From positions 1 through 35,345 of the forward strand of contig JAIQEZ010000044.1 in NCBI GenBank assembly GCA_020073545.1: 35,345 nucleotides of DNA. The letters are read 5' to 3'. A program made the translations under genes and the position numbers. The notes beneath the pieces are model-generated. The model made no database searches, was not told where the DNA came from, and saw nothing but the letters and a program-made list of their open reading frames with translations. Positions 2,167-27,519 of the stretch are shown here, one piece after another (within the stretch, counting starts at the first letter, position 1; each line of letters starts with the position of its first letter). The stretch is from Terriglobia bacterium. Lineage in GTDB: Bacteria > Acidobacteriota > Terriglobia > UBA7540.

Positions 2167-3336
2167 ATGCCCATCCAGTTTGAGATTGTCGCTCAAGACA
2201 AGGTCACACGCGCCCGGGCGGGATTGCTGCACACCCCGCACGGCGCCGTGGAGACACCTGTGTTCATGCCCGTGGGCACAGGGGGCACGGTCAAGGGCAT
2301 GAGGCAAGAGGACCTCGAGACCCTGGGCGTCCAAATCCTGCTCGCCAACACCTATCACCTCTATCTTCGTCCCGGGCACGAACTGATTCGCGACGCCGGC
2401 GGGCTGCACCGCTTCATGGCCTGGCCGCGGCCCATCCTGACGGACAGCGGGGGCTTTCAGGTGATGAGCCTGAAGCCGCTGGGCCGTGTGACGGAAGACG
2501 GCGTGTGGTTTCGCTCACACCTGGATGGCTCCGCGCACTTTCTCTCGCCCGAGCGCGCTGTGGAAATCCAGTTGGCGCTGGGCGCGGATATCATCATGAC
2601 GCTTGACGAGTGCGTCGAATATCCGGCCAGCCGCGAAACGCTCCACCGCGCGGTGAGCTTAACGACGCGCTGGGCAGAGCGCGCGAAGCGGGCCTTCGCG
2701 AGTGGTTCGGGATTCGGGATTGGGGATTTGGATTCCGAACCCCCAACTGCGAATCCCGAATTCCGCGCCCCGAACCCCGCGTTGTTCGGCATCGTGCAGG
2801 GCGGGACGGACAAGGACCTGCGCCGCCAGAGCGCTGAGGCGTTGCTGGACCTGGATTTTGAAGGCTACGCGCTGGGCGGGCTTTCCGTGGGCGAGCCGAA
2901 ATCGGAGATGTACGACGTGGCGGAGTTCACCGCGGAGCTTCTGCCGCGCGAGCGGCCGCGCTACCTGATGGGCGTGGGCACCCCGGAGGATCTGGTGGAG
3001 TGCGTGGCGCGCGGCATCGACCTGTTCGATTGCGTCCTGCCCACGCGCAACGCTCGCAATGCCTGTGCGTTTACTTCTGAGGGCAAAGTCATCCTCAAGA
3101 ACGCCCGCTATGCGCGGGACGAACGGCCGCTCGATCCCGCCTGCACGTGCGCAGTCTGCCGCCGCTACTCACGTCATTACCTCCGCCATCTGTTCGTTTC
3201 CGGCGAAATGCTCGGCGCGATCCTAGCGACGCACCACAACCTCCACTTTTACCTTGACACTATGCGCAAAATCAGGCAGTCTCTCCTGCTTGGAGAGTTC
3301 GCGGAATTCCACGCTAGGGTGCGCGCGGGACCTTAA
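2167..3336 (+). CDS. tgt: tRNA-guanine transglycosylase (queuine/preQ1 insertion)
   Basis: This enzyme exchanges guanine-34 of GUN-anticodon tRNAs for preQ1 in queuosine synthesis. The 389-residue protein has the full TIM-barrel signature: TPVFMPVGT near 30-38, the active-site TDSGGFQ with Asp93, the FGIVQGG loop, and GGLSVGEP. FDCVLPTRNARN carries the nucleophilic Asp. The zinc site is CTCAVCRRYSRHYLRHL plus a later HHNLHFY histidine. It is longer than the usual ~370-380 residues because residues about 180-204 are an insertion encoded by heptamer palindrome C. This insertion lies between the WAERAKRAF helix and ALFGIVQGG, where most homologues have only a short loop. The frame is kept and every catalytic motif survives, so the gene looks functional. 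No Shine-Dalgarno precedes the start. Confidence 0.95.
   Translation: MPIQFEIVAQDKVTRARAGLLHTPHGAVETPVFMPVGTGGTVKGMRQEDLETLGVQILLANTYHLYLRPGHELIRDAGGLHRFMAWPRPILTDSGGFQVMSLKPLGRVTEDGVWFRSHLDGSAHFLSPERAVEIQLALGADIIMTLDECVEYPASRETLHRAVSLTTRWAERAKRAFASGSGFGIGDLDSEPPTANPEFRAPNPALFGIVQGGTDKDLRRQSAEALLDLDFEGYALGGLSVGEPKSEMYDVAEFTAELLPRERPRYLMGVGTPEDLVECVARGIDLFDCVLPTRNARNACAFTSEGKVILKNARYARDERPLDPACTCAVCRRYSRHYLRHLFVSGEMLGAILATHHNLHFYLDTMRKIRQSLLLGEFAEFHARVRAGP
2704..2776. repeat. Heptamer palindrome C, inside tgt
   Basis: The left arm has four heptamers from 2704 to 2731, with words such as GATTCGG and GATTGGG. The right arm has six from 2735 to 2776, with words such as CCGAACC and CCGAATT. A perfect 10-bp inverted pair lies at 2712-2721 and 2752-2761. 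It uses the same word class as palindrome D (3793-3867). It is translated in frame as roughly residues 180-204 of Tgt. Confidence 0.85.
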
Positions 3337-3439: not shown

Positions 3440-3796
3440 TTGATCGAGTGCCTGTTTGTCAACCCCGTCGTTCTGGCGGCGGACCCCGGCATGGGGGGTG
3501 CGCTTACCCAGTTCCTTCTCCTTTTTGCACCTCTCTTTGCGATTTGGTACTTTCTGGTCATCCGGCCGCAACAGCAGCAGCGCAGGAAACTCCAGAGCAT
3601 GCTCGGCAGCCTGAAAACGGGCGACCGCGTGGTGACCAGCGGCGGCATTTACGGGACCATCGTGGGCTTCCGCAATGGCGTGGTGCAATTGCAGATTGCC
3701 AACCAGGTGAAGGTCGATGTGGCGCGCTCTGCCATTACGGGACTCGCCACCGAGGAGGCAACGGGATCGGGCAAGCAGGAGAAACCTCGGGGTTAG
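3440..3796 (+). CDS. yajC: Preprotein translocase accessory subunit YajC
   Basis: YajC is a small single-span inner-membrane protein that associates with SecDF. The hydrophobic segment LTQFLLLFAPLFAIWYFLVIRPQQ leads into the diagnostic RPQQQQRRK, followed by the soluble SLKTGDRVVTSGGIYGTIVG domain. The tail of about 15 residues is low-complexity. The start is uncertain: a TTG at 3440 gives 118 residues with a short N-terminal extension, and an in-frame ATG at 3491 gives 101 residues starting close to the membrane helix. Neither has a clear Shine-Dalgarno. The TAG stop at 3794-3796 falls inside the first heptamer of palindrome D. Gene order yajC-secD-secF confirms the assignment. Confidence 0.9.
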   Translation: MIECLFVNPVVLAADPGMGGALTQFLLLFAPLFAIWYFLVIRPQQQQRRKLQSMLGSLKTGDRVVTSGGIYGTIVGFRNGVVQLQIANQVKVDVARSAITGLATEEATGSGKQEKPRG

Positions 3797-3867
3797 GGAT
3801 TCGGGACTCGGGATTAGGGTTTCGGTATCGGGTCCCGATTCCCTAATCCCGAACCCCGAGTCCCGGG
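3793..3867. repeat. Heptamer palindrome D, between yajC and secD
   Basis: There are five left-arm heptamers from 3793 to 3827 (TTAGGGA, TTCGGGA and CTCGGGA are the first three) and five right-arm heptamers from 3833 to 3867. Perfect inverted pairs are 12 bp (3808-3819 with 3841-3852) and 11 bp (3802-3812 with 3855-3865). The yajC stop lies in the first unit. The last unit provides the GGGAG that serves as the secD Shine-Dalgarno. Confidence 0.88.
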
Positions 3868-3874
3868 AGTTTGC

Positions 3875-20003: not shown

Positions 20004-20016
20004 CGTTGAGTCTTTC

Positions 20017-20194
20017 AGTCCGGAGTCCGGGGTCCGGAGTCGGAAAACCAGTTGAGGGTCTAGAGTCTAAAGTCTAAAGTTGAAGAACCCCTCCCTCTTT
20101 CAACTTTCAACCTCTACCCTTTAAACTCTAACCTTCAACCTCCAACCTGCAAGCGTCTTTAGACTTTAGACTTCGGATCTCGGACTTCGGACAG
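20017..20194. repeat. Heptamer palindrome E, between hslV and hslU
   Basis: This is the largest member. The right arm is 13 uninterrupted heptamers from 20099 to 20189, drifting from TTCAACC-type words to GACTTTA- and then GACTTCG-type words. The left arm holds AGTCCGG-type heptamers from 20017 and GAGTCTA/AAGTCTA-type heptamers from 20056 to 20083. A perfect 16-bp inverted pair lies at 20064-20079 and 20157-20172. The element fills nearly all of the spacer between the hslV stop (20197) and the hslU start (20003). Confidence 0.9.
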
Positions 20195-20196
20195 CC

Positions 20197-20739
20197 TTAA
20201 AGTTCCTCAATCACGATCTGGTCGTTCGTGAAGATGCAAATTTGCCCTGCCAGGAGCATGGCCTCCTGAACAATTCCCTTGGCGCTCATTTCCGTGTGCT
20301 TGGCGAGGGCGCGCGCGGCCGCCAGCGCGTAGGACCCCCCCGAGCCGATGGCTACAATGCCGTCGTCCGGCTCGATCACGTCGCCGTTGCCGCTCACCAG
20401 ATACGTGTTTTTTTCGTCCGCCACCAGCAGCAGCGCTTCCAGGTGGCGCAGCGCGCGGTCCGTGCGCCAATCCTTCGCCAGCTCCACTACCGCGCGGCTA
20501 AGGTTGCCGTGGTATTCCTCGAGTTTCTGCTCGAAGCGGGAAAACAGGGAGAGCGCGTCCGCCGTGCTGCCAGCAAAACCAGCCAGGACTTTCTCGCTGT
20601 AGAGACGGCGGATTTTGCGCGCCTTTTGTTTCACCACGCTCTCGCCCATCGTCACCTGGCCGTCGCCGCCCATCGCCAGGTGGCCGCCGCGGCGCACGCA
20701 AAGAATCGTGGTGCTTCGGGTCTGGGAGAAGTTTTTCAC
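20197..20739 (-). CDS. hslV: ATP-dependent protease peptidase subunit HslV
   Basis: HslV is an N-terminal-nucleophile threonine protease of proteasome-beta type. The 180-residue protein starts at GTG 20739 behind GAAGGAG. A nine-residue propeptide is predicted to be removed to expose Thr10 of [10 protein letters not shown] as nucleophile. Further motifs are [100 protein letters not shown], and the C-terminal [14 protein letters not shown]. It is cotranscribed with hslU, separated only by palindrome E. Confidence 0.96.
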
Positions 20740-27051: not shown

Positions 27052-27060
27052 GGCTCAAAA

Positions 27061-27173
27061 ACAGTGACAGGTGATGAGTGACAAGTGACGAGCAAGAATC
27101 GTTTGGCGCAGCCATTTGAGGGTTCAGCTTCCTTGCTGGTCGCTTATCACCCTTCACTCGTCACTTGTCACTG
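27061..27173. repeat. Heptamer palindrome G, between rsfS and rlmH
   Basis: The left arm is five heptamers from 27061 to 27095, with words such as ACAGTGA, TGAGTGA and CAAGTGA. The right arm is five from 27139 to 27173, with words such as ATCACCC, TTCACTC and GTCACTT. An 8-bp end pair CAGTGACA / TGTCACTG frames it. The element fills nearly the whole spacer between the rsfS stop (27178) and the rlmH start (27051). It is the same word class as palindrome A. Confidence 0.88.
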
Positions 27174-27177
27174 CTCT

Positions 27178-27519
27178 TCACCCTTCCGTCGCCGGCAGGC
27201 GCGGCGCGTTTTTCCAAAGTCGCTCCAGGTCGTAGAAGTGCCGCGCACGCTCGGAAAAAATGTGGACGACAAAATTCAGGTAGTCAACCAAGATCCACTC
27301 CGCCTGGGTGTAGCCTTCCACGTGGGTTGGCGCGTGCCCGGATTTCTTCAGTTTCTCGAGGATGGCATCACAAATCGCCTGGGTATGGCGGGTGGAGGTG
27401 CCCGTGCAAATCAGGAAATAACTGGTGAACGAGCAACTTCCCCCCAGATCCAAGACGCTCAAGTCCAGAGCTTTGCGATCCTGGGCGGCCCAGACCGCTT
27501 CGCGCAGTTGTGGTGTCAT
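27178..27519 (-). CDS. rsfS: Ribosome silencing factor RsfS
   Basis: RsfS binds L14 and blocks subunit joining under starvation. The 113-residue protein shows the family motif set: KALDLSVLDLGG, FTSYFLICTGTSTRHTQAICDAI, and HVEGYTQAEWILVDYLNFVVHIFSERARHFYDLERLW. Its ATG overlaps the nadD stop as ATGA, a standard translationally coupled nadD-rsfS arrangement. Length is normal. Confidence 0.95.
   Translation of the reverse strand: MTPQLREAVWAAQDRKALDLSVLDLGGSCSFTSYFLICTGTSTRHTQAICDAILEKLKKSGHAPTHVEGYTQAEWILVDYLNFVVHIFSERARHFYDLERLWKNAPRLPATEG

Follow-up and report, generated by a model that had tools for sequence, protein, structure and literature searches.

The window analysed here is a stretch of 35,345 nucleotides from a Terriglobia bacterium (Acidobacteriota; genome G000), in which the tgt gene carries a heptamer-periodic palindrome in frame and further heptamer palindromes lie between genes. 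The features considered are:

2167-3336, plus strand: tgt, queuine/preQ1 tRNA-ribosyltransferase, host gene of the insert; complete ORF, 389 aa
2694-2780, no strand: heptamer-periodic palindromic element of the TCGGGNN (GGGATTN) word class, in frame in tgt (period-7 detector)
~2702-2731, plus strand: 5' (G-rich) arm of the tgt element, word pointing inward (RNA fold)
~2735-2766, plus strand: 3' (C-rich) arm of the tgt element (RNA fold)
2038-2167, no strand: heptamer palindrome with TAGGTNN/TCAGGTG words, filling the pre-tgt spacer
3783-3870, no strand: TCGGGNN-class element (the word class of the tgt insert) in the yajC-secD spacer
20010-20200, no strand: nested heptamer palindrome in the hslU-hslV spacer, with TCCGG outer, AGTCTAA middle and TTCAAC inner arms
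27060-27187, no strand: intergenic heptamer palindrome with GTGACNN words

The element in tgt and its host protein

The initial annotation had described a palindrome in frame inside tgt at 2704-2776 (residues 180-204), and the period-7 detector confirms it with wider limits, 2694-2780, encoding about residues 177-205. All six reading frames are open across this element. Folded as RNA, positions 2699-2785 reach -39.5 kcal/mol against -30.0 +/- 3.3 for shuffled sequences (z = -2.8), with 0/200 shuffles folding as stably. The hairpin has no Rfam match, and no GTAG or CGTC tetranucleotide occurs within 2694-2780 or at its ends. The same word class had also been recognized in the yajC-secD spacer, and the TCGGGNN element located there shares 74% identity with the tgt element over ~69 bases on the minus strand and supplies the yajC stop codon in G000. 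Elsewhere the tgt element has no near-identical counterpart, the best match being 85% over 47 bases.

The Tgt protein of the window matches the Pfam TGT family at 4.7e-157, and its AlphaFold2 model (27-sequence alignment, mean pLDDT 89.1) finds its best Foldseek matches in the crystal structures of Zymomonas mobilis TGT (TM ~0.91-0.95). Values of pLDDT below 50 are confined to residues 182-193, which are encoded by the heptamer element, and the predicted fold is otherwise that of a normal TGT, with disorder at these residues only. Alignment with the Z. mobilis enzyme places the insert, 17 additional residues, after the helix that closes at residue 178 and ahead of the FGIVQGG strand. Homologues had been said to have a short loop here, which agrees both with this difference and with a median of 10 residues in wider homologues, most of those outside Acidobacteriota being short. 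No conserved extra Tgt domain was found at the insert site, where the loop is disordered in the model. The catalytic and zinc-type residues are retained, as previously claimed, since the invariant columns of the alignment include D93, D288, C326, C328, C331, H357 and the FGIxQG strand; we take C326, C328, C331 and H357 to be the four zinc-type ligands, and the roles of the invariant residues are those presumed from established TGT biochemistry.

Recurrence and turnover among relatives

A heptamer element occupies the same loop in 13 of 44 related Tgt sequences (in a weaker or partly decayed form in G006 and G015), the relatives' genomes being MAGs. Loops bearing heptamers span 32-107 residues, and their words and peptides are unrelated between relatives. 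The TCGGG class is found in G000 (GGGATTN), G001 (GGGACTC/GGGACAA), G016 (GGGTGTC/GGGACTC), G023 (GGGGTTC) and G031 (GGGATTC), the TCGAA class (GAAACTC) in G011 and G027, the TCGGA class (AGTTCGG) in G018, the TCCAG class (GGTTCCA) in G046, and the word GGTGTCA in G003. An assembly artefact is unlikely because numerous independent assemblies show the same pattern. This variation in presence, length and word among relatives, with neither a uniform insert nor a conserved domain at the site, upholds the earlier proposal that the class can enter coding DNA and be tolerated there. In G023 the insert is a near-perfect inverted repeat over ~43 nt, unlike the word-level pairing seen elsewhere, so that more than one process may act. 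Even without heptamers, the loop exceeds the Z. mobilis length in many Acidobacteriota.

The loop is near-empty in G004, which has eight residues and only a seed-like CGGGACA, and in its sister G008, which has a short single-arm version (AGGGATAAGGGGCAAGGGACA). On a Tgt tree built without the loop residues, both are nested among insert-bearing lineages, and the array of G008 may be a remnant. Presence and absence of the element amount to 8 changes on this tree, of which at least 3 are forced by well-supported branches. The tgt loop acts as a natural recorder: different words repeatedly refill a single orthologous coding site whose boundaries do not move, and the birth, rewriting and loss of such repeats become datable on the gene tree.

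The neighboring spacers were compared within the genus. No heptamer element is present in the pre-tgt spacer of any of seven same-genus relatives (G006, G002, G005, G008, G001, G003, and G004), nor in the yajC-secD spacer of the three that are readable there (G006, G002, and G008). As the tgt element of G006 persists beside two spacers that hold no such element, turnover differs between sites. In the pre-tgt spacer of G006 (L007), a GTAG-containing palindrome, TGTAGCGCCG...CGGCGCTACA, lies where G000 has its heptamer palindrome, and spacers seem to serve as landing sites for more than one unrelated repeat class.

The heptamer class: distribution, word choice and anatomy

A scan of 620 kb of G000 returned 53 period-7 regions against 2 after local shuffling, and other periods gave 1-24 regions, showing that period 7 is special in this genome. 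In a 1.24 Mb sample with roughly called ORFs, 77 heptamer elements were counted, of which 60 are intergenic, 9 lie within ORFs and 8 straddle an ORF edge; 84% of the sampled DNA consists of ORFs, yet only 9/77 elements lie inside them. Intergenic elements often occupy the whole stretch from a stop codon to the next start. A purely intergenic role, against which the initial annotation had argued, is disfavoured by the coding copies, yet the class is mostly intergenic and presence in Tgt carries no information on the role of the intergenic copies. Words vary between elements of G000 (TCAGC, TCAGT, TCGGG, TCGAA, TAGGT, GTGAC, and others), and one word is common to both arms of a single element. 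The nested hslU-hslV palindrome looks as if words had been added in successive layers, and a 492-bp mosaic elsewhere in G000 (L180 9234-9725) strings together five or more heptamer words.

As the seven codons in the cycle show on inspection, neither TCGGGNN nor its reverse NNCCCGA can form a stop codon in any frame with any N, whereas NNGCTGA puts TGA into every frame within three units. TCGGG words make up 5/9 of the in-ORF elements but 2/60 of the intergenic ones (p = 2e-4), an enrichment in line with the inability of the word to make stop codons, and most Tgt inserts in relatives belong to TCGGG, TCGAA, TCGGA or TCCAG. This rule of stop-proof words explains which repeats can turn into protein. 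Other in-ORF copies in G000 lie outside catalytic domains, in linkers of MetG and QueG and at the N-termini of FtsL, RsmH, and FabD; at one locus (L184 17773-19319), the adjacent rsmH and ftsL genes each have their own in-frame TCGGG insert near the N-terminus.

Arrays of the TCAGC word gave 354 inward and 10 outward matches, with inward matches in 26/61 genomes and 6/10 outward matches in G038, and TCGGG arrays gave 24 inward and 3 outward matches, all 3 of the latter in G038; these matches include overlapping registers, and elements are fewer than matches. In G038 (L236), the orientation is opposite for both words tested, CTGAGTN and CCCGAGG pointing inward.

Statistics on spacer bases cover the TCAGC class, not TCGGG. 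A TCAGC unit consists of a fixed 5-mer and two free bases, and the free bases are alike between arms in 6/75 pairs (null mean 6.1), the arms showing independence whether compared in register, out of register or after shifting. Between neighboring units, the two spacer bases agree in 6/125 cases (chance expectation 8%). Where a 5-mer is altered, its partner carries the compensating change in only 1/19 unit pairs, which rules against a hairpin maintained by compensation. When the registers are shifted by 7, pairing is almost as good as in the best register (best 0.73 vs shifted mean 0.56, maximum 0.64). The independence of free bases and the scarcity of compensation imply that TCAGC arms pair at the level of words, that the arms are not copies of each other, and that units are not slippage copies; exact copying between arms is accordingly rejected at word level for this class, though the G023 tgt insert is a near-perfect palindrome. 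Many TCAGC elements of G000 have a common 10-nt centre, YAARGCYTTR (7.1 bits vs 1.9 shuffled), which favours dispersal of a defined core.

Origin of the insert and comparison with known repeats

We consider, with a probability of about 0.7, that the Tgt insert is a neutral passenger of a class of palindromic heptamer elements that are gained and lost, tolerated in a disordered loop. Such miniature palindromes occur genome-wide, with a word array running inward on one side and the same word inward on the other strand, and come and go between species, most settling in short intergenic spacers. Coding copies would persist only where the word is stop-free, the length keeps the frame, and the site is a linker, a terminus or a surface loop; the Tgt loop, lying after residue 178 and before FGIVQGG, has all three properties and is probably for this reason a recurrent acceptor. 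Neutrality is something that we infer, with no Tgt-specific role for the ~25 encoded residues, and the 8-change history with its repeated re-filling could also reflect some use of a long flexible loop. The palindrome itself might be formed by repair-associated DNA synthesis, or an existing palindrome might be copied into the site. The interpretation in the initial annotation is for the most part upheld. Mobility or local generation had both been suggested from the tgt copy, and this holds in part: the YAARGCYTTR centre speaks for dispersal of a core, whereas the different words at one Tgt site in sister lineages, together with the lack of a near-identical copy, speak for generation or rewriting on the spot.

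Slippage of a heptamer seed already in the loop (e.g., the CGGGACA codons), followed by fold-back copying into a second arm, is a possible but doubtful origin. The single-arm array of G008 beside the bare seed of its sister G004 and the near-perfect arms of G023 agree with it, and the preference of bacterial repeats for heptamers has been ascribed to polymerase slippage in a hypothesis discussed in PMC4692102. However, slippage and fold-back would copy spacers, which are alike between adjacent TCAGC units no more often than by chance and independent between arms, and the nested positions of G008 and G004, of which the former may hold a remnant, also speak against it. We regard as slightly more doubtful a preformed palindrome copied by a trans-acting transposase (such as a Y1 HuH/RAYT), with arms that diverged later: the common centre of G000 TCAGC elements, presence or absence at orthologous spacers and nine Y1_Tnp genes in G000 point to it, but the tgt element has no GTAG/CGTC tag at its ends and no near-identical second copy, one site holds different words, and Y1 counts do not track elements (matches/Y1 of 13/1 in G023, 4/0 in G019 and 2/36 in G059), a comparison of raw counts from incomplete MAGs. 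Y1 transposase dosage is disfavoured as the driver, Y1 genes being widespread with numbers that do not follow element numbers in this comparison. A reverse transcriptase was rejected as the source, since RVT_1 is lacking in G046, the genome richest in elements (88 TCAGC matches), as well as in G018, G015, and G023. The inward orientation and the independent two-base spacers set quantitative constraints on any mechanism, which plain slippage fails. They would be explained, together with the word shared by both arms, by a DNA-synthesis activity that writes palindromes, extending the 3' ends on both sides of a break inward before they are joined; each cycle would add a fixed 5-nt word, different for each element, and two unspecified nucleotides. 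We think such an activity improbable; if it were real, the repeats would be scars left by a telomere-like process at break ends, one that reaches into genes as well.

A functional extension specific to Tgt, that is, a flexible loop selected for contact with a partner or tRNA, is very unlikely in our view: the loop is refilled repeatedly and, in many Acidobacteriota, exceeds that of Z. mobilis in length even where heptamers are lacking, but relatives have unrelated words, lengths and peptides there, and the loop is near-empty in G004 and G008, short in most homologues outside the phylum, and disordered in the model. The stable fold (z = -2.8) might suggest an mRNA-level hairpin regulating tgt through attenuation or translational pausing, which is scarcely credible given the lack of an Rfam match, the rarity of compensated pairs and the absence of the element in sister species.

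Heptamer palindromes are common in several phyla without an accepted origin. The GGGNATC and GGGGA(C/T)T heptamers of Xanthomonas and Nostoc, whose function is unknown, form inverted pairs in convergent orientation (~70 in each Xanthomonas genome); most lie between genes (7-11% intragenic), and 83% are conserved between two xanthomonads (PMC4692102). Our class resembles the GGGNATC class in its period of 7, a related G-rich word, inward pairs and mostly intergenic copies; a feature of the GGGNATC class is a run of four unbroken G-tracts with the capacity to fold into a G-quadruplex, and the tgt arm has three (GGG/GGGG) and then GG. Unlike the GGGNATC class, ours has diverse words per genome, independent spacer bases and orthologous spacers that are often empty, and strikes one coding loop repeatedly across genera. 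The TAACTGA repeats of Beggiatoaceae, Cyanobacteria, and Bacteroidetes are also heptamers, with stop codons restricting the orientation able to enter ORFs and a reverse complement, TCAGTTA, that fits the TCAGTNN word found here, but they are nearly always direct and upstream of start codons (PMC4679880), whereas ours are inverted pairs. Rickettsia palindromic elements form families of ~150 bp that lie in housekeeping ORFs and encode a conserved peptide (PMC10969869). They share with the tgt palindrome an in-frame position at a tolerant site of such an ORF, but orthologous Tgt insertions have no common consensus or peptide. REP/REPIN elements with their RAYT transposases are likewise small dispersed intergenic palindromes (PMC3116915, PMC8266576), unlike which our elements have heptamer-array arms, no GTAG/CGTC tag and no tracking with Y1 number.

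New here are the empty same-genus spacers, the inward words, the independent TCAGC spacers, the preference for TCGGG in ORFs and the recurrent filling of one Tgt loop, which shows that housekeeping genes are entered again and again, wherever the protein tolerates it, by a class of repeats that is poorly understood. The filling extends to a case in a different phylum, an Omnitrophota Tgt whose corresponding loop carries a single-arm array of CTAACCG heptamers (L100 3508-3563). At another Omnitrophota locus, TGCGCCA/CAAAGCG heptamer arrays lie near tgt (L101 4990-5079).
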